Shown: positions 12,160-47,560 of the stretch, piece after piece
Layout of the letters: each line of letters begins with the position of its first letter
How positions within the stretch are numbered: the first letter of the stretch is position 1
Notes under the pieces: model-generated
The model's database searches: none
What the model saw: only the letters and a program-made list of their open reading frames with translations
Told to the model about the DNA's origin: nothing
Translations under genes and position numbers: made by a program
From: Marmoricola endophyticus
GTDB lineage: Bacteria; Actinomycetota; Actinomycetes; Propionibacteriales; Nocardioidaceae
Direction: 5' to 3'
Length of the DNA stretch: 64,000 nucleotides
Assembly: GCF_014644415.1 (NCBI RefSeq)
Contig: NZ_BMKQ01000001.1
Location: 2,109,556-2,173,555, forward strand

Positions 12160-12546
12160 CTACTTGCGCCGGTCGGCGGCCGCGTCGAGGGCCTCGGCGA
12201 AGGTCGGGATCTCCTCGCGCAGCCTCTCGACCGTCTCCCGGGTGAAGTGCAGGACGCACGCGTCGGTGGTGGTGACGACGGAGGCGTTGCGCAGCTTGTG
12301 GCTCACGATCGCCGTCTCCCCGACGACGTCGCCGGGCCCCAGGGTGGCGATCTCCTCCTTGCCCTTGCGGACCGAGAGCTCACCCTCCAAGACGATGTAG
12401 GCCTTGTCGGCGGGGGTCTTCTCGCTCATCAAGGACCAGTTCGCGGGGACGTTGACCTCCGTGCCGGCTTTGGCGATGCGCTTGACGTCCTTGTCGCTGA
12501 GCCGGTCGAAGATCGGGATGTCCCCGATCGAAGGCTTGCTGCTCAC
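12160..12546 (-). CDS. Single-domain cyclic-nucleotide-binding protein
   Basis: A 128-residue protein made of one cyclic-nucleotide-binding domain and nothing else. The phosphate-binding cassette is intact: G76-E77 in GDVVGETAIV and R86 in LRNASVV, so cAMP binding is plausible. There is no DNA-binding domain or catalytic domain, so it may act as a cAMP buffer or pass the signal by protein contact; that is inference. It is the first gene of the pair with the adenylate cyclase. Confidence 0.88.
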   Translation of the reverse strand: MSSKPSIGDIPIFDRLSDKDVKRIAKAGTEVNVPANWSLMSEKTPADKAYIVLEGELSVRKGKEEIATLGPGDVVGETAIVSHKLRNASVVTTTDACVLHFTRETVERLREEIPTFAEALDAAADRRK

Positions 12547-12693: not shown

Positions 12694-15420
12694 TCAGCGC
12701 TCGGTGAGGGCCGCCCACGTGGACTGCACCTGGGCGACGTCCTCCGCGGTCCCGTGCTCGGCCAGGAGTGCGGAGGAGGCCCGCGCCAGCGGCACCGCCT
12801 CCTCGGCCCGGCCCGCCTGGACCAGGATGACCGCCGCCTGGTGCTCGAGCAGGCCGCGCAGCCGCTTCTCCTCGATCGGGTCGGCGAAGCGGGTGGTCGG
12901 GTCGTCGGGCTCCAGCGGAGTGATGTCGCGCGTCTCCGGGATGATCGACCCGAGCGTGGACAGTGCCTCGGTGACCCGCCCGCCGCTGGCCTGGACGCCG
13001 GCGAGCTGCCGCAGGCTGGAGACCAGCCGGTGCCGGTCCCCCAGGTGCCGCGAGATCCGCGCCGCCGCCACCAGCTGCTGACCGGCCTCGTCGACGCGAC
13101 CGGAGCGGGCGTACGTCGCGCCGGCCGCCTCGCTGGCCGCCGCGGCGTCCGGCAGCTGGTCGGTACGACGAAAGCCCTCCGCCGCCGTCGCGAAGTGCTC
13201 GGCGGCGAGGTCCGGCCGCTCGCAGGCGAGCAGCGCCCGCCCGAGCGCCCAGGCCGTCACGGCCAGGAAGGGCGAGCCCTCCCGCGCCAGCGCGGCGACC
13301 GCCGGCTCGAGCACCTCCGCCGACTCGTGGGCGTTGCCGGTCTCGAGCAGCCCGGTGCCGAGCACGCGGTGGGCCAGCGAGCGGCGGACGACGTCGGCGG
13401 GCCCGGCGCGCAGCAGCAGCTCGTGGGCGGCGTCGATCGCCTCCTCCCAGCGCTCGTCGGCGAGAAGCACGTCGCACAGCTCGGCCCGCAGACCGAGCGG
13501 GTCGGTGATGCCGACCTCGTCGGCGGCGGCGACGGCCTCGGAGTACGCCTGCGCGGCGGTGGTGAGGTCGCCTTGCTGCTGGGCCAGCTTGGCCCGGGTG
13601 GCGAGGAGCGTGACCGCGACCGGCACCATCTCGTGGGTCTCGGCCTCGGCCTCCGCCTCCTCCAGCAGGTCGACGGCTCGTGCCGGATCGGCCCAGACGG
13701 CGGCGTACGCGGCCCCCTGCAGCGCGGTCACCCGCCAGCGCGGCTGGCCGGCCTGCTCGAAGAGCGTGGCGGCGCGCTCGGCGTACGCCTGGCCGCGGAC
13801 CGGGTCCGAGGAGCGGCTCAGCGTGAGCAGCCCCGACGCCGCCTCCTTCAGCTCGCCCTCGTCGACGAGCTCCTCGACCAGCTTCTCCGCCCGCGACCAC
13901 GCGGTCCGGTCGCCCGCGACCGCCTGGCGGTGGAGCACGTCGATGTCGACCCGCTGGGCCGCCGCCTGGCTGCCGGAGAGCCGGGCCGAGGCGGCCGCGC
14001 TCTCGAGCAGCTCCTCAGCGAAGGCGGGGTCGCGCTGCGCCCGCTCGCAGGCCAGCGAGCGACGCTCGAGGTACGCGACGGCGAAGTGCTCCAGCGTCCC
14101 GGACGCGGGCAGCAGGTGGTCCCGGTCGACCGACCAGCCCTCGATGAGCTCCATGACCCGCGCCCCGTCGAAGGCGTCGCTGGCGCCGATCAGCTCGGCG
14201 GCGTAGCCCAGCGCCCCGGCGGGCAGCGCCGACTCGGGCGGCGCCGTCCGCTCGACCCCGCCGGCGAGCGCCACGTCGAGCAGGTCGTACGAGCGCGCCT
14301 CCTCCGAGGCCCCCTCGGCGTGCAGCCGGATCCGGGTCAGCTCCCGGACCCGCGAGCCCACCCGGTCGGTCCCGTTGCGGCGGTCGAACGCCTCGGCCAG
14401 CTCGCGCCCGACGGTCGCGAAGGTGCTGATCGCCGCGTCGAGCGCCAGCCCGTCGACGACCGGAGGAGCGATCCGGTGCCCGCGTCCCGCCCGGAGCACG
14501 CGGGAGGCGACCGCGGCGGCGCACATCCGCTCGACGTCGTCCATCTCCGCGGCGGCCGGGCCGTTGAGGAGCACGACCAGCTGCTGGGCCAGGCGGGAGG
14601 CCCGGCCGGGGCGCCCCGCCCGCAGGAGGTACATCACGTGGTCGGCCATCGCCGAGGCGTGCCGCGGTCGTCCGGCGACCAGCAGCCACCCGGCCCGGTG
14701 GTACGCCTCGGCGGTGTCGCCGAGGCCCAGCCGCGCCGCCCAGTCGGCGGCCTCGCCGTAGAGCCGGTGCGGCTCACGGTCGCAGGACCGTCGGCCCTCC
14801 AGCAGGTCGCGAGCCCGCTCGAGGGCACCCTGGAGGTCCCCGGCCTCGGCGAGGAAGCGGGCGTCGGTGGCGATGTCGCACACCGCGCAGTCGCTGAGCT
14901 CGTCGCGCGGGCTGCGCCGCCACACGGAGAGCCAGCGGTCGAAGACGGCCGGGTCGTCGATGTCGCGGGCGAGCAGGGCGCGGTACTTCGCGAACAGGTT
15001 CGGCGAGACCCGCTCGGCGCGGTAGCGGCGCTCGATGTCGGCGTACACGCGGAGCACCAGGGGCAGCGGGAGGGTCGTCGTGCGCCGGGTCCGCTGCAGC
15101 GCGAAGCGGCACTCCCAGAGGATCTCGAAGCGCTGCCGGTCGGTGAGGACCCCCGACACGTCTGCGGCTCCGTGCCCGTCCCCGTCGGCGAGGGCGCTGA
15201 GCAGCCAGGCGATGTGCGGCAGCTCGCGCTCACCCGGGCGGGAGGCGTCGTACGCGGCGACGAGGTTGATCCTCGCCTGCACCTGCAGGCCGACCCCCGC
15301 GGCGCCCTCGAGGTGGCGCGCGCTGTCCAGGGCACGCTCGGCGGCGGCGACCTGCTCCTCACCGGGTGGGAGAGCGTCGGCGACCCGGAGCAGCTGCTCC
15401 ACCTCGACGACGCTCGACAT
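12694..15420 (-). CDS. Large tetratricopeptide-repeat protein
   Basis: A cytoplasmic 908-residue protein made almost wholly of helical repeats of TPR type, for example near the C-terminus ARAVDLLEEAEAEAE, the AALAREGSPFLAVTAWALGRALLA unit and AEHFATAAEGFRRTDQLPDAA. No signal peptide, kinase, ATPase or DNA-binding domain is visible. The ATG has a good GGAGGG site upstream. Such proteins are scaffolds for protein contacts; the partner is unknown. It lies 147 bp upstream of nothing related on its strand (the cAMP pair follows), so a functional link to cAMP signalling is only a possibility. Confidence 0.8.
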   Translation of the reverse strand: MSSVVEVEQLLRVADALPPGEEQVAAAERALDSARHLEGAAGVGLQVQARINLVAAYDASRPGERELPHIAWLLSALADGDGHGAADVSGVLTDRQRFEILWECRFALQRTRRTTTLPLPLVLRVYADIERRYRAERVSPNLFAKYRALLARDIDDPAVFDRWLSVWRRSPRDELSDCAVCDIATDARFLAEAGDLQGALERARDLLEGRRSCDREPHRLYGEAADWAARLGLGDTAEAYHRAGWLLVAGRPRHASAMADHVMYLLRAGRPGRASRLAQQLVVLLNGPAAAEMDDVERMCAAAVASRVLRAGRGHRIAPPVVDGLALDAAISTFATVGRELAEAFDRRNGTDRVGSRVRELTRIRLHAEGASEEARSYDLLDVALAGGVERTAPPESALPAGALGYAAELIGASDAFDGARVMELIEGWSVDRDHLLPASGTLEHFAVAYLERRSLACERAQRDPAFAEELLESAAASARLSGSQAAAQRVDIDVLHRQAVAGDRTAWSRAEKLVEELVDEGELKEAASGLLTLSRSSDPVRGQAYAERAATLFEQAGQPRWRVTALQGAAYAAVWADPARAVDLLEEAEAEAETHEMVPVAVTLLATRAKLAQQQGDLTTAAQAYSEAVAAADEVGITDPLGLRAELCDVLLADERWEEAIDAAHELLLRAGPADVVRRSLAHRVLGTGLLETGNAHESAEVLEPAVAALAREGSPFLAVTAWALGRALLACERPDLAAEHFATAAEGFRRTDQLPDAAAASEAAGATYARSGRVDEAGQQLVAAARISRHLGDRHRLVSSLRQLAGVQASGGRVTEALSTLGSIIPETRDITPLEPDDPTTRFADPIEEKRLRGLLEHQAAVILVQAGRAEEAVPLARASSALLAEHGTAEDVAQVQSTWAALTER

Positions 15421-15541
15421 GTGCCCTCCTCGTCCGCCCGGCTGCCGACCGGTCGGGGCCGGCGGCGACCGCGACAGGCTACGCGGGCGTCCGCACGCGC
15501 GGCGAGCCGTGCAGGTCAGGCCGTGGGCGGGCCCGCGCGGC

Positions 15542-15934
15542 TCAGAGCCGGGGCGAGCGCCCGAAGGACCAGAGCGCCACCCAGACCGCCCCGACGACCA
15601 GGGCCATCGCGCCCGGAATGTGCACCGCGAGGCTCATCCGGTCCCCGGTGGCGGCCTGGACGAACGTGTAGACGAAGACGATCACGGCGATCACCCCGGG
15701 CCACGGCGAGGTGCGCGTGCGGTACCAGTGCGCGCCGGCCGCGACGGCCGCGAACCCGCTCACGACGTGCAGCACGATCGCGCCGGTGGCGTGCAGGTCG
15801 ACCGGGCCGGGGAACAGTCGGCCGGCCGTGACGAACTGCCAGGCGAGGTTGACCACGGTGAGCACGGCGAACACCTGCAGGGCGCGCAGCGTGCCGGGGC
15901 TGGAGGTACGGGCGGGGCCGGTGGCTGCACTCAT
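15542..15934 (-). CDS. Four-helix integral membrane protein
   Basis: This 130-residue protein has four hydrophobic segments (about 16-34, 48-66, 76-93 and 103-122) with His residues in the second and fourth, and a short basic tail. The layout resembles small actinobacterial membrane proteins of unknown role; no motif gives a function. The ATG is preceded by GAGGAGA at a good distance. It is flanked by the TPR gene downstream and the BASS transporter upstream on the same strand. Confidence 0.75.
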   Translation of the reverse strand: MSAATGPARTSSPGTLRALQVFAVLTVVNLAWQFVTAGRLFPGPVDLHATGAIVLHVVSGFAAVAAGAHWYRTRTSPWPGVIAVIVFVYTFVQAATGDRMSLAVHIPGAMALVVGAVWVALWSFGRSPRL

Positions 15935-16015
15935 CTGCGTCTCCTCGGGGTCACGGCCGACGATAGACCCCGGCGCGGACCCGTGGCTGTGATCAGGCTG
16001 TGAGTGCGCCGAGGG

Positions 16016-16990
16016 TCAGCTGCTGCCGGCCGTCACCGGCTCGGCGACGCCGGCCGGGTCGGGGCGCCGGGACCAGCGCCCGGCGACCAGCGAGCCCGAG
16101 ACGTTGTGCCAGACCGAGAAGATCGCCGCCGGGAGCGCGGCGGCCGGGCTGAAGTGCGCCCCGGCCAGCGCGGCCGCGAGACCGGAGTTCTGCATGCCGA
16201 CCTCGATCGAGACCGCCCTCCGGCTCGGCACGTCCAGCCCGGAGACCTTGCCGATGGCGTAGCCGAGCGCGAGCCCGATCAGGTTGTGCAGCGCGACGGC
16301 GACCACGAGCAGGACACCGATGTCGAGCAGCGTGTCCGCACTGCCGGCGACCACCGCCATCACCACGACGGTGATGCCGAGGACCGAGACCAGCGGGAGG
16401 ACCTCCAGGAGTCGGTCGACGAGCCCGGGAAGGAGCAGTCGCAGCACCACGCCGAGCACGACGGGCACCAGCACGACCTGGAGGATCGAGACGAACAGAC
16501 CGCCGGTGTCCACGGGCAGGAAGCGTCCCGCCAGCCAGAGGACGAGCAGCGGCGTCAGCAGCGGGGCGAGCAGCGTCGACACCGTGGTCATCGCGACGGA
16601 CAGGGCCGTGTCCCCCTTCGCGAGGTAGACCATCACGTTGGATGCCGTCCCTCCCGGCGCGGAGCCGACCAGCACCATCCCCGCGGTCAGCGCGGGCGAG
16701 AGGTCGAGCAGGGTCGCCACGCCCAGGCCGGTGAGCGGCATGACGACGTACTGCGCCGCCACGCCGAGCGCGATCGCCCAGGGCCGTCTCGCCACGATCG
16801 CGAAGTCGCCGGCGCGCAGGGTCATCCCCATCCCGAGCATGATCACCGCCAGCAGCCACGGGACCGCGGGCCCGAGCGGGCTGAAGGTGCCGGGCGTCAG
16901 CAGCGCGATGCCGCCGGCGACGAGGACGATGAGGGCGAACCACCGCCCGGTGAACGCGTTGACGGCGGCGAGTCGGGCGAGTCGCGACAT
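16016..16990 (-). CDS. Bile acid:sodium symporter (BASS) family transporter
   Basis: A membrane transporter of 324 residues with about ten helices. The BASS signatures are visible: LGMGMTLRAGDF near the N-terminus, VGSAPGGTASNVMVYLAKGD in the first crossover, and EVGMQNSGLAAALA in the second. Family members import organic anions such as pantoate, pyruvate or bile acids with Na+; the substrate here is unknown. The start at the ATG at 16988-16990 is 37 bp after the stop of the split-barrel protein, so it may belong to the same transcript as the B12 sensor. Confidence 0.9.
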   Translation of the reverse strand: MSRLARLAAVNAFTGRWFALIVLVAGGIALLTPGTFSPLGPAVPWLLAVIMLGMGMTLRAGDFAIVARRPWAIALGVAAQYVVMPLTGLGVATLLDLSPALTAGMVLVGSAPGGTASNVMVYLAKGDTALSVAMTTVSTLLAPLLTPLLVLWLAGRFLPVDTGGLFVSILQVVLVPVVLGVVLRLLLPGLVDRLLEVLPLVSVLGITVVVMAVVAGSADTLLDIGVLLVVAVALHNLIGLALGYAIGKVSGLDVPSRRAVSIEVGMQNSGLAAALAGAHFSPAAALPAAIFSVWHNVSGSLVAGRWSRRPDPAGVAEPVTAGSS

Positions 16991-17027
16991 GCTCCGCACC
17001 TTCGCACACCGCCGAGGAGGCGAGGCC

Positions 17028-17450
17028 TCAGCGCAGGGACGGCCCGGCGAGCACGCGGGTCGGGGTGATCCGCAGGGCGACGCGGGCGGGGTTCTCCCGC
17101 GGCTGGCGGTAGCGGCCGGCGTACACCTGCTCGGCGTGCGCGACCGACTCGGCATCCGTACGGACCTCGGCGGTGCCCTCGACCGAGGACCAGCGGCGGC
17201 CGTCGACCTGCGCCACCGAGACCCGTGCCGGGCCGCCGGCCGGGTCTCCGGCGGCGACGTTGCGGGCCTTGCGGGAGCTGCCCGAGGTGATCACCCAGGC
17301 ACAGCCCTGCTCGGGGTCGAGGACGCACCCGACGGCGACGACGTGCGGGGACCCGTCCGACCGCAGGGTGGTCAGGGTGCACAGGTGACGCTCGGTCCAG
17401 AACTCCCGGAGGCCGTCCCCCATCTCGTCCAGCAGCGGGCTCCGACTCAC
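17028..17450 (-). CDS. PPOX-class split-barrel oxidoreductase (F420 or flavin)
   Basis: A 140-residue protein of the pyridoxamine-5'-phosphate-oxidase-like split barrel, in the group that often uses F420 in actinobacteria. Typical pieces are the TLRSDGSPHVVAVG strand pair, ITSGSSRKARNV for cofactor phosphate binding, and the RVSVAQVDGRRWSSVEGTAEV strands. I start it at the GTG at 17448-17450, which overlaps the stop of the B12-binding gene by 4 bp. Substrate is not known. Translation coupling to the sensor suggests a role in the same light or redox response. Confidence 0.85.
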   Translation of the reverse strand: MSRSPLLDEMGDGLREFWTERHLCTLTTLRSDGSPHVVAVGCVLDPEQGCAWVITSGSSRKARNVAAGDPAGGPARVSVAQVDGRRWSSVEGTAEVRTDAESVAHAEQVYAGRYRQPRENPARVALRITPTRVLAGPSLR

Positions 17451-18124
17451 GCGGGCACCCCGCGCAGCGTCCCGTCGACCAGGTCGGCGGCCGGGACGGT
17501 CGACAGCGGCAGGAGGAGACCGGCGTGCCGCTCGGCCAGCTGCGCCGTCGCCGCACGACCGGCGAGGGCGATCGTCGTGCGCCCCGCCAGCCGGGCGAGG
17601 TCCTCGGCGGCGGCCTCGAGCTGGGCGTCGTACATGTGCGGCTCGCTGCCGCACAGCACCAGCACGTCCGCGTCACGGTCCAGCGCGAGCTCGACCGCCG
17701 CGTCGACCGGGGTGTCCGCCCCGAGGAACACGCTGTCCCAGCCCCGCTCGCGCAGCACGAGGTCGAGGGCGAGCAGCCCGATGTCGTGCCGCTCGTACGT
17801 CGGGCAGGCCAGCACCGCGGTGCCGCGCGGGGGTACGGGGCGACCGGCGGCCAGTGCGGAGGCCAGCCCGACGAGGCGGCCGCGGACCAGCCCGCTCGCC
17901 CAGTGCTCCTGGGCCACCGAGACCTCACCGCGCTCCCAGGCGTCGCCCAGCTCGCGCAGGAACGGGAAGACGAGGTCGTCGACCACGACGGCGACACGGT
18001 GCGCGGCGAAGGCCGCGTCGAGAAGCCCGTGGACGGCGCGCTCGTCGTAGCGACCGAACGCCTCGCGCAGCCCGTGGGCCTGCGCGGCGAGACCGGCCGC
18101 CGGGTCCGCGCGCACGTCGGTCAC
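17447..18124 (-). CDS. LitR/CarH-like B12-binding photosensor without DNA-binding domain
   Basis: A 225-residue cobalamin-binding protein. A four-helix cap domain holds the light-sensor motif W63-x9-E73-H74 of the CarH/LitR family, and the Rossmann-like B12 domain holds E111-R-H113-D-I-G116, where H113 is the expected lower cobalt ligand. In CarH the adenosylcobalamin-bound form binds DNA in the dark and light breaks it apart. Here the N-terminal MerR helix-turn-helix is missing: the GTG start has a GGGAGG site 5 bases upstream, and no helix-turn-helix can be read upstream. The residue after the Trp is Glu, not the His that takes the upper cobalt position in Thermus CarH after light. It diverges from the photolyase operon. 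Confidence 0.88.
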   Translation of the reverse strand: MTDVRADPAAGLAAQAHGLREAFGRYDERAVHGLLDAAFAAHRVAVVVDDLVFPFLRELGDAWERGEVSVAQEHWASGLVRGRLVGLASALAAGRPVPPRGTAVLACPTYERHDIGLLALDLVLRERGWDSVFLGADTPVDAAVELALDRDADVLVLCGSEPHMYDAQLEAAAEDLARLAGRTTIALAGRAATAQLAERHAGLLLPLSTVPAADLVDGTLRGVPA

Positions 18125-18129
18125 GACTA

Positions 18130-18135
18130 CCTCCC
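18130..18135 (-). promoter_or_regulatory. Ribosome-binding site fixing the start of the B12 sensor
   Basis: GGGAGG on the minus strand lies 5 bases before the GTG at 18124. It shows that translation begins at the cap domain and that the sensor really lacks an N-terminal DNA-binding region. Confidence 0.7.
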
Positions 18136-18178
18136 GGTGTCCGTGTGGGGACGCCTCGATGTGGGTACGTTCCGAGAC

Positions 18179-18622
18179 ATGTCGCACCTTATCCAGCGCA
18201 CCGTCCACACGTCCTGGGATGCGCAGTCCGTCTTCGACTACCTCCTCGCCTTCGAGAACGCGGTCGAGTGGGACGCCGGCACCGTCACCTGCCACCGCAC
18301 CTCCGGCGAGGGCGGGGTGGGGACGACGTACGAGAACGTCTCGGAGTTCCGCGGGAGCAGGACGACGCTGGAGTACACCGTCGAGAGCGTCGAGGGCTCC
18401 CACCGCTTCGTCATCATCGGCCGCAACAAGACCGTCACCAGCAAGGACACCATCACGGTCGAGGAGCACGACGGCAGCACGTCGGTCGACTACCAGGCGG
18501 AGATGACGTTTCACGGGATCGCCAAGCTGGCCTCGCCGTTCCTCGGCGGGGCGCTGACCAAGCTCGGCGACGACGCCGAGAAGACGCTGTCCGAGGCCCT
18601 GAGCAAGCACGCCGGCTCGTGA
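18179..18622 (+). CDS. SRPBCC-family protein (polyketide cyclase/START-like fold)
   Basis: A 147-residue protein of the helix-grip fold that binds hydrophobic ligands: the RTVHTSWDAQSVFDYLLAFENAVEWDAG opening and the closing SPFLGGALTKLGDDAEKTLSEAL helix are typical. It is the first gene of the divergent operon opposite the B12 sensor, with 54 bp between the two starts. Its stop overlaps the photolyase start by 4 bp. Similar proteins are found next to photolyase and LitR genes in other bacteria; the ligand is unknown. Confidence 0.85.
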   Translation: MSHLIQRTVHTSWDAQSVFDYLLAFENAVEWDAGTVTCHRTSGEGGVGTTYENVSEFRGSRTTLEYTVESVEGSHRFVIIGRNKTVTSKDTITVEEHDGSTSVDYQAEMTFHGIAKLASPFLGGALTKLGDDAEKTLSEALSKHAGS

Positions 18623-19965
18623 GCGCGCTCCTCTGGCTGCGCCGCGACCTGCGCCGCGCCGACCTGCCCGCGCTGGGCGCCGCGGCCGAGGCGGGCGACG
18701 GCCGCGTGCAGGCCGTCTTCGTCATCGACCCGACGCTGTGGGGCCGCGCCGGGAAGGTACGCACCGCGTGGCTCGCCGCCAGCCTGCGCGCGGCCGTGGC
18801 GTCGTACGACGGCAACCTCTCGGTCCGCGTCGGCGACCCGCGCGAGGTGATACCGCGGCTGGCCGCCGAGCACGACTCGGTGCACGTGTCGACCGAGCCG
18901 TTCCCGTACGGCCGGGCCCGCGACGAGGCGGTCCGGGACGCCCTGCCCGACGGGGTCGAGTGGGTCGAGACCGGCAGCCCGTACGCCATCACGCCGGGCC
19001 GGGTCCGCAAGGGCGACGACACGCCGTACCAGGTCTTCACCCCGTTCTCCCGGGCCTGGCGCGAGCACGGTTGGCCGAGGCCGGCCCAGGCGCCGGCGAA
19101 GCTGACGCTGGCGGCGGCCGACGACGACGGCCGGGCGGCGCAGATGATCGACAAGGCGCTGCGCGAGGGGCCCGACGACCTGCCCGACGCCGGCGAGGAC
19201 GCTGCGCTGGCGCGCTGGCGGGAGTTCCTCGACGACGCGATCGACGACTACGAGGACGCCCGCGACCGGCCGGCCGTGGATGCGACCTCGCGGCTCTCGC
19301 CGTACCTCAAGGTCGGCGCGATCCACCCGCGGACCGTCCTCGCCGACCTCGCCGACAAGCGCTCGGCCGGCGCCTCGGCGTGGGAGACGGAGATCTGCTG
19401 GCGCGACTTCTACGCCGACGTGCTCTGGCACCACCCCGACTCCGCGTGGTCGGACCTCAAGCCGATCGGCCTGGACTACGACGACCCGGCCGACGGCATC
19501 GAGGCGTGGAAGTCCGGCCACACCGGCTTCCCCGTGGTCGACGCCGGGATGCGGCAGCTGCTCGCGACCGGGTGGATGCACAACCGGGTCCGGATGATCA
19601 CCGCCAGCTTCCTGGCCAAGGACCTGCACGCCTGGTGGCCGGTCGGGGCGCAGCACTTCCTCGAGCACCTGCTCGACGGCGACGTCGCCTCGAACAACCA
19701 CGGCTGGCAGTGGGCGGCGGGCACCGGCACCGACGCGGCACCGTACTTCCGCGTCTTCAACCCGGTCACGCAGGGCAAGAAGTTCGACCCCGACGGGGAG
19801 TACGTCCGCCGCTGGGTGCCCGAGCTCGCGCACCTGGCCGGCAAGGCCGCGCACGAGCCGTGGGAGCACGACGACGGCTACGCCCACGACTACCCGCGTC
19901 GGATCGTGGACCACAAGGAGGAGCGCGAGAAGGCGCTCGACCGCTACCAGAAGGCGAAGGGGTAA
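18619..19965 (+). CDS. phrB: Deoxyribodipyrimidine photolyase
   Basis: A class I photolyase of 448 residues that uses blue light and reduced FAD to split cyclobutane pyrimidine dimers. The antenna domain starts with LLWLRRDLRRADLPAL. The FAD/DNA domain shows LSPYLKVGAIHPRTV, WRDFYADVLWHHP, GFPVVDAGMRQLLATGWMHN, and the strongly conserved NNHGWQWAAGTGTDAAPY. The GTG start overlaps the SRPBCC stop. The placement beside a B12 photosensor suggests light induction. Confidence 0.96.
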   Translation: MSALLWLRRDLRRADLPALGAAAEAGDGRVQAVFVIDPTLWGRAGKVRTAWLAASLRAAVASYDGNLSVRVGDPREVIPRLAAEHDSVHVSTEPFPYGRARDEAVRDALPDGVEWVETGSPYAITPGRVRKGDDTPYQVFTPFSRAWREHGWPRPAQAPAKLTLAAADDDGRAAQMIDKALREGPDDLPDAGEDAALARWREFLDDAIDDYEDARDRPAVDATSRLSPYLKVGAIHPRTVLADLADKRSAGASAWETEICWRDFYADVLWHHPDSAWSDLKPIGLDYDDPADGIEAWKSGHTGFPVVDAGMRQLLATGWMHNRVRMITASFLAKDLHAWWPVGAQHFLEHLLDGDVASNNHGWQWAAGTGTDAAPYFRVFNPVTQGKKFDPDGEYVRRWVPELAHLAGKAAHEPWEHDDGYAHDYPRRIVDHKEEREKALDRYQKAKG

Positions 19966-19969
19966 CAGC

Positions 19970-20935
19970 GTGAACCCGCTCGACCCGCTCTCCCGCGTCA
20001 CCGACCTCGCACTCGACCGCACGCTGGTCGGCTTCTCCCAGGTCGGGCTCTCGGTCCGCTCGCTGCTGCCCGGGTGGCCGGAGGACCCCGCTCCGGACGC
20101 CCTCGTCGGCACCCACGTGGCCGTGACCGGCGCGACCTCGGGCCTGGGGCTCGCGACAGCGACCGACTGCGCGCGCCTGGGTGCCGTCGTCCACCTCGTC
20201 GTCCGCGACCCCGCCAAGGCCAAGGAGGTCGTCGCCGCCATCCAGCGCGACGTGCCGCAGTCCGTCGTGGAGGTGCACCGGTGCGACGTCGGCGACCTGG
20301 ACGACGTACGCCGCTTCGTCGCCGACCTGCGCGACCACCTCGGCGAGACCTCGCTGGGCGGGCTGGTGCACAACGCCGGTGTGATGCCGCCCGAGCGCAG
20401 CGAGTCGGCCCAGGGGCACGAGCTGTCGATGGCGGTGCACCTGCTCGGGCCGGTGCTGATGACCGAGCTGCTGCAGCCGCAGCTCTCGCCGGGCGCACGC
20501 GTGGTGATGGTGACCTCGGGCGGGATGTACGCCCAGGTGCTGCGCCCCGACGACCCGGAGTACCTCACCGGCGACTACTCCCCCACCACCGCGTACGCCC
20601 GCAGCAAGCGCGCCCAGGTCGAGCTGCTCCCCGCGCTCGCGGCGCGGTGGGTCGACGTGCACCTGTGGGCCATGCACCCCGGCTGGGCCGACACCCCCGG
20701 CGTCGTGGAGTCGCTGCCGACCTTCCACAAGGTCCTCGGCCCGGTGCTGCGCGACGGCTCCGGCGGCGCGGACACGACCGTCTGGCTGCTGGCCACCGAG
20801 CCCCCGCCGCCCGACGGCGGGCTCTGGCACGACCGGCGGCGTCGGCCCGACCACTTCTGGGGCTCGAACAAGCCCCGCGAGGGCGCGGTCGAGCAGATGC
20901 TCGCGTGGGTGCTGGCGGAGACCGGTCTGTCGTGA
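19970..20935 (+). CDS. Short-chain dehydrogenase/reductase
   Basis: An SDR of 321 residues with an N-terminal extension of about 45 residues before the Rossmann fold. The cofactor motif TGATSGLG, the HNAGVM loop, the catalytic Ser in MVTSGGM, and Tyr/Lys in YARSK are all present, so it should be active. The extension and the HLWAMHPGWADTPGV segment resemble DHRS12-like SDRs, which occur near photolyase or LitR genes in several genomes (recalled, not searched). It starts 4 bp after the photolyase stop. Substrate unknown. Confidence 0.9.
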   Translation: MNPLDPLSRVTDLALDRTLVGFSQVGLSVRSLLPGWPEDPAPDALVGTHVAVTGATSGLGLATATDCARLGAVVHLVVRDPAKAKEVVAAIQRDVPQSVVEVHRCDVGDLDDVRRFVADLRDHLGETSLGGLVHNAGVMPPERSESAQGHELSMAVHLLGPVLMTELLQPQLSPGARVVMVTSGGMYAQVLRPDDPEYLTGDYSPTTAYARSKRAQVELLPALAARWVDVHLWAMHPGWADTPGVVESLPTFHKVLGPVLRDGSGGADTTVWLLATEPPPPDGGLWHDRRRRPDHFWGSNKPREGAVEQMLAWVLAETGLS

Positions 20936-21390
20936 GTCTCAGGCGCACCGTCCCCGCCGTCCTGACCGGCGCCGTCCTCGGCACGCTCGGCACGAAGCCG
21001 ACGTCCGCGTGGTACCGCGACCTCGACCGTCCGTCGTGGGAGCCGCCGACGGTGGTCTTCCCGGTTGCCTGGACGTCGCTGTACGCCGCCACCGCCACCG
21101 CCGTCGCCCGGGCCATGGACGCGACCGACTCCTCGTCGGTGCGCCGCGACCTCGAGCGACGGCTGTGGGCCAACATGGCGCTCAACGCCGGCTGGTGCTG
21201 GCTGTTCTTCACCGCCCATAAGCCACGGCTCGCGCTGGCCGAGCTGCTGCTCCTCGAGGCCTCCACCGCCGACCTGGCGCGCCGGTGCGCGCGGGTCGAC
21301 GCGGGAGCAGGTGCGCTGCTCGCGCCGTACGTCGGCTGGAACGCGTTCGCCGCCGCCCTCAACGCCGAGATCGTGCGGAGGAACGGGTAG
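20932..21390 (+). CDS. TspO/MBR-family tryptophan-rich sensory protein
   Basis: A 152-residue protein with five membrane helices. Family residues are visible: SAWYRDLDRPSWEPPTVVFPVAWTSLY near the N-terminus, the NAGWCWLFF segment and the late APYVGWNAFAAALN. TspO proteins bind porphyrins and cholesterol-like ligands; bacterial members take part in light and oxygen responses. Its start overlaps the SDR stop by 4 bp, so it is the last gene of the SRPBCC-photolyase-SDR-TspO operon. This supports the reading of the locus as a light-stress module. Confidence 0.93.
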   Translation: MSLRRTVPAVLTGAVLGTLGTKPTSAWYRDLDRPSWEPPTVVFPVAWTSLYAATATAVARAMDATDSSSVRRDLERRLWANMALNAGWCWLFFTAHKPRLALAELLLLEASTADLARRCARVDAGAGALLAPYVGWNAFAAALNAEIVRRNG

Positions 21391-21414
21391 GTCCCGCCCC
21401 CCCGGGACCCCGGG

Positions 21415-21608
21415 GGTCTCGACGTCCTCCCCTGCGACAGGCTCAGGAGACCGCCTCGCTGGTCGTCCGGTGGTCTCGACGTCCTCCCTCGCTAGCGCTC
21501 GGTCGGGCTCGACCACCTCGGCCGTTGGGCTCGACCACCTCGGTGGTTGAGCAGCGAGCGCCTCGGGGTGGTTGAGCAGCGAGCGCAAGCGAGCGCGTCG
21601 AAACCACC
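21415..21608. repeat. Palindromic repeat cluster, locus 2
   Basis: Two GGTCTCGACGTCCTCCC units (21415 and 21472) are followed by two GGTGGTTGAGCAGCGAGCG units (21542 and 21568); the second continues to GTCGAAACCACC at 21608. The first unit closes on GAGACC at 21452 and can fold. This fills most of the space between TspO and the DUF885 gene and is related to the repeats at 8706-8895 and 60463-60504. Confidence 0.75.
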
Positions 21609-21632
21609 CCGCGCACCGCGCGGCGGGCGTCG

Positions 21633-21638
21633 TACGGT
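21633..21638 (+). promoter_or_regulatory. -10 element, leaderless pattern
   Basis: TACGGT ends 7 bases before the GTG of the DUF885 gene at 21646, with no ribosome-binding site between. Confidence 0.45.
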
Positions 21639-21645
21639 CGACACC

Positions 21646-23319
21646 GTGACCGCTGACGACGCCGCCCGTGACCTCGACGACCTGACCACGGCCTTCTGGG
21701 ACCACTACCTGGAGTCGAACCCGACCGAGGCGCACCTGCTGGGGATCTACCGCTACGCCGGGTTCGTCGAGGACTCCTCGCGCGCGGCGGAGGACCGCAC
21801 GATCGAGACGATGCGGACCTTCGCGAGCGACGCCGAGGCGATCGACCCGGGCGGGCTGGACGATCAGCAGCGCCTGAGCCGGGAGCTGCTGGTCCACCAC
21901 GCCGACGACACGGCCGCGGTGCTCGGCGTACGCCTGCCCGAGCTGGGCGCGGACCCGATCTTCGGCCCGCAGGAGGAGCTGCCGATCGTGCTCGGGATGC
22001 TCGGTCTGCCCGACGCCGGCGTCGCCGAGGCGATGGCGGACAAGCTGCACGGCTTCGGCCGGCAGGTCGACCAGCTGACCGAGCGGCTGCGCGAGGGCGT
22101 CGCGTCGGGTCGTACCCCGGCGGCGTTCGCGGTGACGGACACGGTCGGCCAGATCGACGACTGGCTGGCCCGCCCGATCAACGAGGACCCGCTGCTCGCC
22201 GCGGTCCCCGCGCCGCCGGCTACCCTCGACGAGGCGGCGTGGCGCGAGCGGCTCGGGCAGGTCGTGGCCGACGTCGTACGCCCTGCCTTCGCGGCGTACG
22301 CCGACGTCCTGCGTACGGAGGTGCTGCCGCACGCCCGGCCCGACGAGGAGTGCGGCCTCGGCGCGCTGCCGGACGGCGAGGCGTCGTACGCCACCATGCT
22401 GCGGCACTCCACCACCACCGACCTCACCGCGCAGCAGATCCACGACATCGGGCTGGAGCAGGTGGCGAAGCTGGCCGAGGAGTACCGCGCCCTCGGTCCC
22501 GACGTCGTCGGCTCCGACGACCTCGGGACGATCTTCGAGCGGCTGCGCACCGACCCCGCGCTGCACTACGAGCGCGGCGAGGAGCTGGTCTCCGACAGCG
22601 TCGTGGCGATGGACCGGGCCTGGGCCGCGATGCCGGACTGGTTCGAGACCCTGCCGCAGGCGCGGTGCGAGGTGCAGGGCACCGACGGCGGGGCGAAGGC
22701 GTTCTACTTCCCGCCCGCCTCCGACGGCAGCCGCGGCGGCACGTTCTTCATCAACACCGAGGAGCCGGAGTCCTGGGGGCGCTTCGAGCTGGAGTCGATG
22801 GCCTTCCACGAGGGCATCCCCGGCCACCACCTGCAGCTGACCATCGCCGGCGAGCTGAGCGGCCTCCCCGACTTCCGCAAGCACCTGCACCACAACGCCT
22901 ACGCCGAGGGCTGGGGCCTCTACACCGAGCGGCTGGCCGACGAGATGGGCCTGTACGCCGGTCCCGTCGACCGGATCGGGATGCTCGCCGCGGACTCGAT
23001 GCGCGCCTGCCGGCTGGTCGTCGACACCGGCCTGCACGCGCTGGGCTGGAGCCGGCAGCAGGCCGTCGACTACATGGTCGACAACTCGCCGCTCACGCCG
23101 GCGATGGTGCGCCCCGAGATCGACCGCTACATCTGCTCGCCCGGCCAGGCGACCGGCTACATGGTCGGTCGGCTGGAGATCCTCAGGATGCGCGCCGAGG
23201 CCCAGGGCCGGCAGGGCGCGGGCTTCGACGTACGACGCTTCCACTCCGCCGTCCTCGACTCGGGCTCCCTGCCGCTGGACGTCCTCGACCGGGTGGTCGC
23301 CGCGCGGCTCCCGGCGTGA
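21646..23319 (+). CDS. DUF885-family protein, predicted zinc peptidase-like
   Basis: A soluble 557-residue protein of the DUF885 family. The hallmark H-E-G-I-P-G-H within SMAFHEGIPGHHLQ is a probable zinc site similar to that of metallopeptidases, and a later conserved YAEGWGLYTERLADE helix can supply a Glu ligand. The C-terminal SPGQATGYMVGRLEI is also typical of the family. There is no signal peptide. I start it at the GTG at 21646, directly after a -10-like element; an in-frame upstream stretch reads through the repeat and is not credible. Substrate unknown. Confidence 0.88.
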   Translation: MTADDAARDLDDLTTAFWDHYLESNPTEAHLLGIYRYAGFVEDSSRAAEDRTIETMRTFASDAEAIDPGGLDDQQRLSRELLVHHADDTAAVLGVRLPELGADPIFGPQEELPIVLGMLGLPDAGVAEAMADKLHGFGRQVDQLTERLREGVASGRTPAAFAVTDTVGQIDDWLARPINEDPLLAAVPAPPATLDEAAWRERLGQVVADVVRPAFAAYADVLRTEVLPHARPDEECGLGALPDGEASYATMLRHSTTTDLTAQQIHDIGLEQVAKLAEEYRALGPDVVGSDDLGTIFERLRTDPALHYERGEELVSDSVVAMDRAWAAMPDWFETLPQARCEVQGTDGGAKAFYFPPASDGSRGGTFFINTEEPESWGRFELESMAFHEGIPGHHLQLTIAGELSGLPDFRKHLHHNAYAEGWGLYTERLADEMGLYAGPVDRIGMLAADSMRACRLVVDTGLHALGWSRQQAVDYMVDNSPLTPAMVRPEIDRYICSPGQATGYMVGRLEILRMRAEAQGRQGAGFDVRRFHSAVLDSGSLPLDVLDRVVAARLPA

Positions 23320-24332: not shown

Positions 24333-24821
24333 CTACGGAGCGACGGCGGCCAGCGCCGCCAGCGCGTCGCCGGTGACCCGCTGGGTGGTCCACTCCTCCT
24401 GCGGCCGCGCCCCGATCGAGCGGTAGAACCCGATCGCCGGCTCGTTCCAGTCCAGCACGGTCCACTCCAGCCGCGGCAGCCCGCGCTCGACGCACTCCCG
24501 GGCGAGGGCGGACAGCAGCGCCTTGCCGGCGCGGGTCCCGCGGTGGGCGGGCTCGACGTACAGGTCCTCGAGCCAGATGCCGTTGCGCCCGGTCCAGGTT
24601 GAGAAGGTGAGGAACCACAGCGCCATGCCGACGACCTCGCCGTCGACCCCGTCCGACACCGCGACGTGGGCGTACGCGGTCGGCACCTCGCCGAACAGCG
24701 CGGTCTCGAAGTCGGCGGCGGTCGCGGTCGCCTGGTCGAGCTCCTTCTCGTACGCGGCGAGGTCGCGCACCAGTGCCACGATCCGGGGGACGTCGGCGGT
24801 GGTGGCGCGGCGCACGGTCAT
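24333..24821 (-). CDS. GNAT N-acetyltransferase (diamine acetyltransferase-like)
   Basis: A 162-residue GNAT enzyme. The acetyl-CoA pyrophosphate loop is HRGTRAGKALL (about 93-103), preceded by GIWLEDLYVEPA and followed by LEWTVLDWNEPAIGFYRSIGA. These segments are typical of the spermidine/thialysine acetyltransferase group, so a small amine substrate is likely; this is inference. The ATG overlaps the stop of the SGNH esterase gene by 4 bp (ATGA), so the two are translated together. Confidence 0.88.
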   Translation of the reverse strand: MTVRRATTADVPRIVALVRDLAAYEKELDQATATAADFETALFGEVPTAYAHVAVSDGVDGEVVGMALWFLTFSTWTGRNGIWLEDLYVEPAHRGTRAGKALLSALARECVERGLPRLEWTVLDWNEPAIGFYRSIGARPQEEWTTQRVTGDALAALAAVAP

Positions 24822-46540: not shown

Positions 46541-47560
46541 TCACCCCAGGTCCGCCACCACCACCGTGTGGTTGTCCGGCTCGCCCGCGGCAGCCACCGC
46601 GGCGGCAAGGGCGTCGGCGACAGCCTGCGGCCCGGTCTCCGCCGAGAGCAGCGGCTCGAGATGGTCGACGTGGGCGTGCACGCCGTCGGTGGTCAGGACG
46701 AGCCGGTCCCCCGACCGCAGCTCCACCTCGACCTCGTCGGGCACCACACCCGGGGTCAGCGCACGGTTCAGCAGGCTGCGGTGGTCGTGGGCGCGCGCCT
46801 CCTCCTCGGTGAGCTGCCCGGCGTCGAGCAGCGCCGCGACCATCGTGTGGTCGTGGGTCAGGCAGCGCACCTCACCGTCACGGACGAGCCAGACCCGGGC
46901 GTCGCCGACGTGCGTCAACCGTCCCAGCGTTCCGTCCAGCGTCACCGCCGTGAGCGTCGTCCCCGCCGACGGCTGGCCCGGCAGCGCCTCGTGGAAGGCG
47001 GGGGCGACCTCGGCGACGGCGGCTGCGAACCCGCCGCGGGCGTACGCCCTCAGCGCGGCCGCCGCGAGGTCGTCGCGGTCTCCGAAGCCGTCGGCGACCG
47101 CGAGAAGCCCGGGGGTCGCGAGGAAGGCGTCCTGCTGCCGCTCGCGGCGTCCCTGCCGGTGGCCGGTCCCGACCTCGGCGCGCAGTGTCTGCGTTGCTGT
47201 GCTCATGGTGCTCTCCTCGTTCTTCCACTGACGAACGAGGGTGGTGACGATGTCGCGACGGCTGACCGTGTCGGCCTCCACCTGGCTCCAGTACGCCTCG
47301 ACCTCCCGCGCGGCGGCGGCGTCCGAGGCGTCCACGACGTCCCGGATCCGCGCCAGCGGCATCCCCAGCAGCCGGAGCATCGCGACCGTGCGCGCCCGCT
47401 CGAGCTGGGACGGTGCGTACCGGCGGTAGCCGGACCACGCGTCCACCTCCGCCGGCACGAGCAGGCCGAGCTCGTCGTAGACGCGCAGCGCCTTCGCCGA
47501 GAGACCTGCCTCCCGCGCGAAGTCGCCGATCGTCATGAGCGCCTCGGACATCGTCACCAT
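46541..47560 (-). CDS. MerR regulator fused to PP2C-type phosphatase
   Basis: A 339-residue fusion. Residues 10-77 are a MerR DNA-binding domain: MTIGDFAREAGLSAKALRVYDELGLL, GYRRYAPSQLERA and LRLLGMPLARIRDV. Residues 124-339 are a PP2C Ser/Thr phosphatase: RQQDAF, AVADGFGD (D157), SAGTTLTAV, VGDARVWLV, LVLTTDGV and the final DNHTVVV; all metal Asp residues are present. An internal ATG (47206, residue 119) has GGAGAG just upstream, so a PP2C-only product may also be made. It diverges from metF. ATG at 47551 is an alternative first start. Confidence 0.88.
   Translation of the reverse strand: MVTMSEALMTIGDFAREAGLSAKALRVYDELGLLVPAEVDAWSGYRRYAPSQLERARTVAMLRLLGMPLARIRDVVDASDAAAAREVEAYWSQVEADTVSRRDIVTTLVRQWKNEESTMSTATQTLRAEVGTGHRQGRRERQQDAFLATPGLLAVADGFGDRDDLAAAALRAYARGGFAAAVAEVAPAFHEALPGQPSAGTTLTAVTLDGTLGRLTHVGDARVWLVRDGEVRCLTHDHTMVAALLDAGQLTEEEARAHDHRSLLNRALTPGVVPDEVEVELRSGDRLVLTTDGVHAHVDHLEPLLSAETGPQAVADALAAAVAAAGEPDNHTVVVADLG

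Follow-up and report, generated by a model that had tools for sequence, protein, structure and literature searches.

We analysed a 64,000-nucleotide stretch of the Marmoricola endophyticus genome (contig NZ_BMKQ01000001.1, positions 2,109,556 to 2,173,555; hereafter the window, in whose numbering positions are given). It contains a gene whose product, below called the sensor, has the cobalamin-binding domains of the CarH/LitR light-responsive repressors and no MerR-type helix-turn-helix (HTH). Judging from sequence comparison, this is very probably a former CarH/LitR gene of a LitR-phr locus (phr, DNA photolyase) that has lost its HTH in place. The descent of the sensor from a CarH/LitR gene is supported by the phylogenetic tree and by synteny. 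The case seems to be that of a familiar type of light switch beheaded in nature, and not of a new kind of sensor. The gene and the adjacent promoter region are:

17447..18124, minus strand: HTH-less CarH/LitR cobalamin-binding domain protein, 225 aa, a four-helix bundle and a Rossmann domain
18125..18178, no strand assigned: divergent promoter region of 54 bp, without detectable CarH-type 11-bp direct repeats, with TACGTT present

The open reading frame (ORF) is intact and has a GTG start with GGGAGG, a good ribosome-binding site, directly 5' of it. The protein matches two Pfam families, B12-binding_2 at residues 17–81 and B12-binding at 102–195, and no further domains. It contains W63-x9-E73-H74 and E-R-H113-D-I-G, with W63, E73, H74 and H113 invariant in a 23-row alignment; that is, cobalamin domains of the CarH/LitR kind, the W-x9-EH motif and the lower-ligand His are all present. 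The NCBIfam CarH model aligns with the sensor only from model position 84 and yields 84.4 bits at a cut-off of 400. However, this score is not diagnostic, since the HTH-bearing protein of G028, a genome of the same genus, also falls under the cut-off (129.5 bits, alignment beginning at model position 11).

There is no alternative upstream start that would add an HTH: the 424-aa stop-to-stop frame around the gene does not match a MerR profile built from the MerR proteins of the same genome. With the two Pfam domains and the motifs in place and no HTH in the frame, the original prediction of a B12 sensor module devoid of a DNA-binding domain, made from the letters of the window alone, holds. The HTH of the G028 LitR has zero matches in positions 15000–22000 of the window at E up to 10. 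The sole good match in the whole window, an ordinary MerR HTH at 47333–47548 (minus strand, 35% identity), is unrelated. In the rest of the genome (99.99% complete, a draft of 22 contigs) the same HTH finds ordinary MerR matches only, the best at 40% identity over 63 aa. An HTH residing in a separate gene was considered as well and set aside, the best match in the genome being an ordinary 122-aa MerR protein at C1:1269492, some 0.86 Mb from the locus and without apparent link to it. It had also been suggested that the sensor titrates a full-length LitR, and this did not find support: the genome has a single sensor match at E 1e-8, and none of its five B12-binding Pfam matches is near any of the 14 MerR matches. 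With no second LitR detected in the genome, titration is unlikely.

The lack of the HTH is unusual, as this domain is present in 34 of the 35 relatives found in the order and phylum (all 15 matches from the sole other matching family of the order, and all 20 phylum matches outside the own genome); in some taxa the searches drew on samples of larger groups. The sole HTH-less match among the 35, L185, comes from G545, a small genome in the phylum. Among the family and genus rows, five distant ones (L072–L075 and L077) have no HTH by profile, and two, L071 and L076, match the profile weakly.

At E 1e-8 or better, the sensor has a match in 10 of 24 genomes of the genus, the own one included; outside the own genome, the match in G028 (53% identity, E 5e-56) is the only close one. 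Seven distant relatives from a scan of named genomes were left out of the comparisons. In G028 (region L050), a 302-aa MerR-B12 LitR, with the B12 domain as its C-terminal part and an HTH recognised by Pfam MerR_1 (2.8e-13), is divergent from genes for the photolyase, a short-chain dehydrogenase (SDR) and TspO. The blastn blocks shared by the window and G028 are collinear: 12185–12516, 12740–15420 (a large gene), 17615–17970 (the B12 domain), 18628–21384 (phr-SDR-TspO) and 24350–24820. This synteny had gone unnoticed in the original prediction. In the tree, the sensor pairs with the G028 protein (support 85/99), apart from the other HTH-less clade. As G028 has a full LitR at the syntenic locus, an in-place loss of the HTH is most likely. 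The ancestral form would then be that of G028, and the simplest history is that the window lineage lost the HTH. The neighbouring genes in the window are:

12694..15420, minus strand: large gene, 908 aa (labelled TPR by eye only); its homologue stands directly after LitR in G028 and serves as the synteny anchor
16016..16990, minus strand: PanS/BASS-type transporter, following PPOX; missed in the original prediction
17028..17450, minus strand: PPOX split-barrel oxidoreductase of the Rv1155/F420 type, with a 4-bp overlap with the sensor gene
18179..18622, plus strand: SRPBCC (Polyketide_cyc2) protein, first gene of the operon, divergent from the sensor gene and 54 bp away from it
18619..19965, plus strand: DNA photolyase (phr), 74% identical to its G028 orthologue
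19970..20935, plus strand: SDR
20932..21390, plus strand: TspO/MBR family protein

Adjacent genes of the SRPBCC-phr-SDR-TspO operon are joined by 4-bp overlaps or a 4-bp gap, and the SRPBCC gene occupies the place where the HTH-coding part would be expected. The neighbourhood as first described, with the PPOX overlap and the divergent operon at a spacing of 54 bp, was confirmed.

In the literature, CarH operators consist of 11-bp repeats in tandem, nnnnTnnACAn (PMC9304148). From each of 14 HTH-bearing LitR genes we took the 190 bp that precede the HTH match. A palindromic operator was tried first and gave nothing consistent; a model of tandem arrays with a preset 11-bp period was adopted instead. 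The period was chosen partly after the known CarH spacing; the base pattern was not taken from the published repeat. The repeat found, TGTCNANNNTT (TGTNNA), is the published TnnACA read on the other strand. Its total score is 322.9 versus 146–156 in eight shuffled sets; the shuffles keep base composition only, several of the 14 sequences are close kin, and one of the loci (L056) shows no clear array. When G028 was excluded from training, its region scored 18.5, a value reached by none of 300 controls, against 1.5 for the window region, which 58 of 300 controls reached. Among held-out HTH-bearing loci, 25 of 34 exceed the 99% null (21/28 and 4/6), including all 15 of the other family; the null pool included LitR loci, hence the test is conservative. 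None of six stretches of the window around the sensor, SRPBCC, phr, PPOX and PanS genes exceeds the 99% null for the repeat array. A search of the own genome for perfect triple repeats found none, although this search is weak, as G028 by eye has only one perfect repeat.

Given that the HTH and the operator repeats are both absent, the LitR-operator circuit is probably gone here. By sequence, the two appear to have been lost together, and with them, probably, the circuit linking the sensor to phr, a point missed in the original prediction. The hexamer TACGTT precedes the SRPBCC ATG by 7 nt in the window and the phr GTG by 6 nt in G028; it is a possible -10 element, which is suggestive only.

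The sensor domain itself, in sequence, is intact and without sign of decay. The sensor retains every one of the 21 columns that do not vary among 14 HTH-bearing rows (G028 retains 19), and of 46 near-invariant columns both proteins keep 36. Equivalents of the Thermus CarH residues Trp131, Glu141, His142, Arg149, Arg176, His177, Gly192 and Asp201 are retained; the roles of the residues compared, in the B12 site, the salt bridge and the dimer, were taken from PMC8221060 and PMC10442372. The residue following the His177 equivalent is Asp in the sensor, and the Thermus CarH segment used in the comparison has Glu where the paper names Asp178. In relative-rate tests of the sensor versus the G028 protein with eight outgroups, 13–20 changes are unique to the window and 17–29 to G028. 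The window count is the larger with one outgroup (20 vs 19), and none of the eight tests is significant. Hence accelerated decay of the sensor was rejected, although its tree branch is longer. The same tests are non-significant for phr (0/6) and the large gene (0/1), and for SDR they show excess change in the window with two of five outgroups. The codon score is 87.1 for the 225 codons of the sensor gene and 113.5 for the 302 codons of the G028 gene, that is, similar per codon. The AlphaFold model (mean pLDDT 92.8, pTM 0.89) consists of four helices and a Rossmann part, and each of the best 50 of its 109 Foldseek matches in the PDB (E 0.001) is a Thermus CarH structure. A gene for a cobalamin adenosyltransferase is present in the genome. 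The retained residues and the model make it likely that the domain still binds adenosylcobalamin.

At the position of the upper ligand His132 of Thermus CarH, which follows the Trp of the motif, the sensor has Glu (Glu64), and it had been proposed that this indicates a different photoproduct. This idea was not upheld. His is found at this place in none of 36 family and genus relatives having the motif (L071, with no EH motif there, was left out) and in none of 35 order and phylum relatives, HTH-bearing ones included. The 71 relatives have Glu, Ala or other residues, so Glu64 as a special photochemical change was rejected. Thus, the upper His ligand does not define the CarH/LitR family here, and since His132 is absent from all relatives examined, the Thermus ligand switch cannot be assumed for these relatives. 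In these CarH/LitR proteins the lower His is kept in the aligned rows and operator repeats in most HTH-bearing loci tested, and His132 occurs in none.

The description of the locus as a light-response island is supported by association: phr-SDR-TspO is divergent from LitR in G028, and in the other family of the order (L152–L166) the downstream genes on the same strand include SRPBCC and SDR at 13 of the 15 HTH-bearing LitR loci. At one of these loci (L155), an NmrA/DUF2867 gene stands in between, and the divergent side carries a DUF1365 gene and a cyclopropane-synthase-type gene (Pfam). At an HTH-bearing LitR locus elsewhere in the phylum (L170), a phr homologue is the next gene. The region of Pseudomonas mendocina PmlR1, a LitR, is described as containing PhrB, SDR, an FAD oxidoreductase and UfaM (PMC9758184). 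As SRPBCC, SDR and phr recur at LitR loci and in the PmlR1 cluster, the window island has the gene content of a LitR locus. Within the genus, SRPBCC homologues were found in 11 genomes, and wider regions were compared for five others. The homologue adjoins an SDR homologue in G060 and G113, is about 2.4–2.7 kb from one in G004 and G084, and has no SDR nearby in G028. In G004, a photolyase-related gene (Pfam DPRP) is situated between the SRPBCC and SDR homologues. The phr regions of 14 other genomes of the genus (phr at E 1e-30) contain no detected B12 protein. The PPOX and PanS genes stand between the sensor gene and the large gene in the window, and neither was found in the G028 region. PPOX was also rejected as a conserved partner, as it was not found beside the sensor homologues in 20 loci and in the 15 loci of the other family. 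Gene calls for the loci of the other family, the SRPBCC homologues and the sulfate-associated clade described next rely on a codon scorer written for this work, and it failed to call the SRPBCC gene of the window.

A second HTH-less CarH-type clade, separate in the tree, comprises 15 loci, with CysA directly upstream in 14 of them (the exception is L046). The corresponding regions, from one genus of the family, are L054, L058, L064, L066, L067 and L069 and the shorter L025, L029, L035, L037, L038 and L040–L049. The proteins are HTH-less, of about 200–220 aa, and the upstream genes, by NCBIfam names in L054, are SBP-CysT-CysW-CysA. One genome, G096, has two tandem copies of the B12 protein. It is possible, judging by gene context, that these proteins are B12 or light sensors tied to sulfate uptake. 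HTH-less homologues far from light genes, named in the original prediction as a finding that would speak against it, therefore do exist, and a missing HTH is not by itself a sign of a function in light.

AerR and the photocobilins are already known examples of B12 photosensors that lack a DNA-binding domain. In the open-licence literature, covered mostly as listings, we found no paper on a LitR with its HTH lost at a LitR-phr locus. With the class I CarH/LitR proteins, exemplified by Thermus CarH, the sensor shares the cobalamin domain, the residues of the B12 site and the salt bridge, the fold, and a locus syntenic with that of an HTH-bearing LitR; its phr and SDR neighbours are those reported for the PmlR1 cluster (PMC9758184). 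Unlike them, it has neither the HTH nor detected operator repeats, and has Glu for His132, the relatives also being without His. Class II LitR acting with a short LOV partner in Pseudomonas is the reverse case: the LitR-type locus with phrB and SDR is similar, but there the HTH is described as kept and B12 binding is implied to be absent (PMC9758184). AerR/PpaA proteins, like the sensor, are stand-alone B12 proteins made of a four-helix bundle and a Rossmann domain, without a DNA-binding domain; AerR is described as acting with CrtJ while not itself binding DNA (PMC9144470). However, the sensor matches this group only weakly in sequence (AerR structure 7te2, E 0.00055) and, unlike it, is very probably derived from CarH by loss. 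A CrtJ/PpsR-type partner was not seen among the seven island proteins scanned, no genome-wide CrtJ search having been made. Photocobilins, B12-bilin proteins that are stand-alone or fused, also have a CarH-like B12 light-sensor domain, and such domains are reported to have modulated a separate enzyme in vitro (PMC10979010), the kind of protein-contact action considered here. Unlike them, the 225-aa sensor has no bilin-binding globin-like domain: Pfam finds two B12 domains, and the model has the bundle and the Rossmann part. SignatureFinder is likewise reported to predict light-responsive sequences outside annotated MerR proteins (PMC11796333).

The best explanation overall, which we consider reasonably probable, is that the LitR gene was beheaded in place, the operon was freed from LitR, and the remaining domain acts, if at all, by protein contact. 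The operon of the window would no longer be repressed by LitR in the dark and would be constitutive or under another regulator. The domain would bind adenosylcobalamin, dimerise head-to-tail in the dark and be opened by light, and its state would be passed on by contact with another protein, as with AerR and CrtJ, not by DNA binding. By this analogy, signalling by protein contact may be proposed, tentatively and at somewhat less than even chances. Several observations weigh against this explanation. The 85/99 support of the pair with G028 is under the level starred by the tool, the sensor branch is longer than that of G028 (1.16 vs 0.72) and was flagged as long, and the beheaded form occurs in this one genome only among the genomes searched. 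The interface residue Gly160 of Thermus CarH is Ala in the sensor. The relative-rate tests, on fewer than 200 columns, are low-powered, and an unchanged domain is also expected if the loss is very recent. Finally, 9 of the 34 held-out HTH-bearing loci also have no detectable repeat array; a missing array therefore says little by itself, but one is present at the syntenic G028 promoter.

The main rival, which we regard as rather unlikely, is that the domain is a remnant without present function that persists after a perhaps recent HTH loss. The joint absence of the HTH and the repeat array, the lack of another LitR, the longer branch, and the PPOX and PanS neighbours not found at the G028 locus are in keeping with it, whereas the intact ORF with a good ribosome-binding site, the 21 of 21 invariant residues, the lack of significant excess change relative to the HTH-bearing orthologue, and a per-codon score like that of the G028 gene speak against it. 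Also unlikely is continued control of the phr operon in the light by the sensor as an AerR-like co-regulator with a separate DNA-binding partner. AerR with CrtJ (PMC9144470) and photocobilins with a separate enzyme (PMC10979010) provide precedents, as reported, and the sensor gene remains divergent from the operon with the dimer residues kept; but no regulator gene is present among the island proteins scanned, the promoter is devoid of CarH-type repeats, and the MerR protein of the genome most similar to the LitR HTH, about 0.86 Mb away, is without apparent link to the locus.

An assembly or strain artefact, with the HTH part lost or misjoined in the draft, is very improbable. Although only one genome, a draft of 22 contigs, is concerned, the junction lies within a 3.37-Mb contig and is clean (SRPBCC, the 54-bp gap, a GTG start with a Shine-Dalgarno sequence), and elsewhere in the genome the G028 HTH finds nothing beyond ordinary MerR proteins. 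Membership of the sensor in an old, separate HTH-less B12 family, such as the clade beside the sulfate-transporter genes, was already disfavoured and is scarcely tenable: such a clade does exist, with CysA directly upstream at 14 of 15 loci, but the tree groups the sensor with the HTH-bearing G028 protein and requires two changes of the HTH-less label, and the sensor locus is syntenic with that of an HTH-bearing LitR.

In the strongest form of the preferred explanation, beheading in place, a CarH photoreceptor deprived of its HTH and operator would have become a B12 light sensor acting in trans, with control over this DNA-repair island via a protein partner; this is distinctly doubtful, but if true, it would be an independent AerR-like invention beside a sister species keeping the one-piece repressor. 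HTH-less domains of the CarH type also occur away from light genes, as the clade beside sulfate-uptake genes. The genus thus provides a natural before/after pair, the one-piece repressor with its operator in G028 and the sensor alone, with no operator found, in the window. This pair makes it testable whether the B12 domain of CarH acts without its DNA-binding half, and how co-regulator photosensors of the AerR type could arise.

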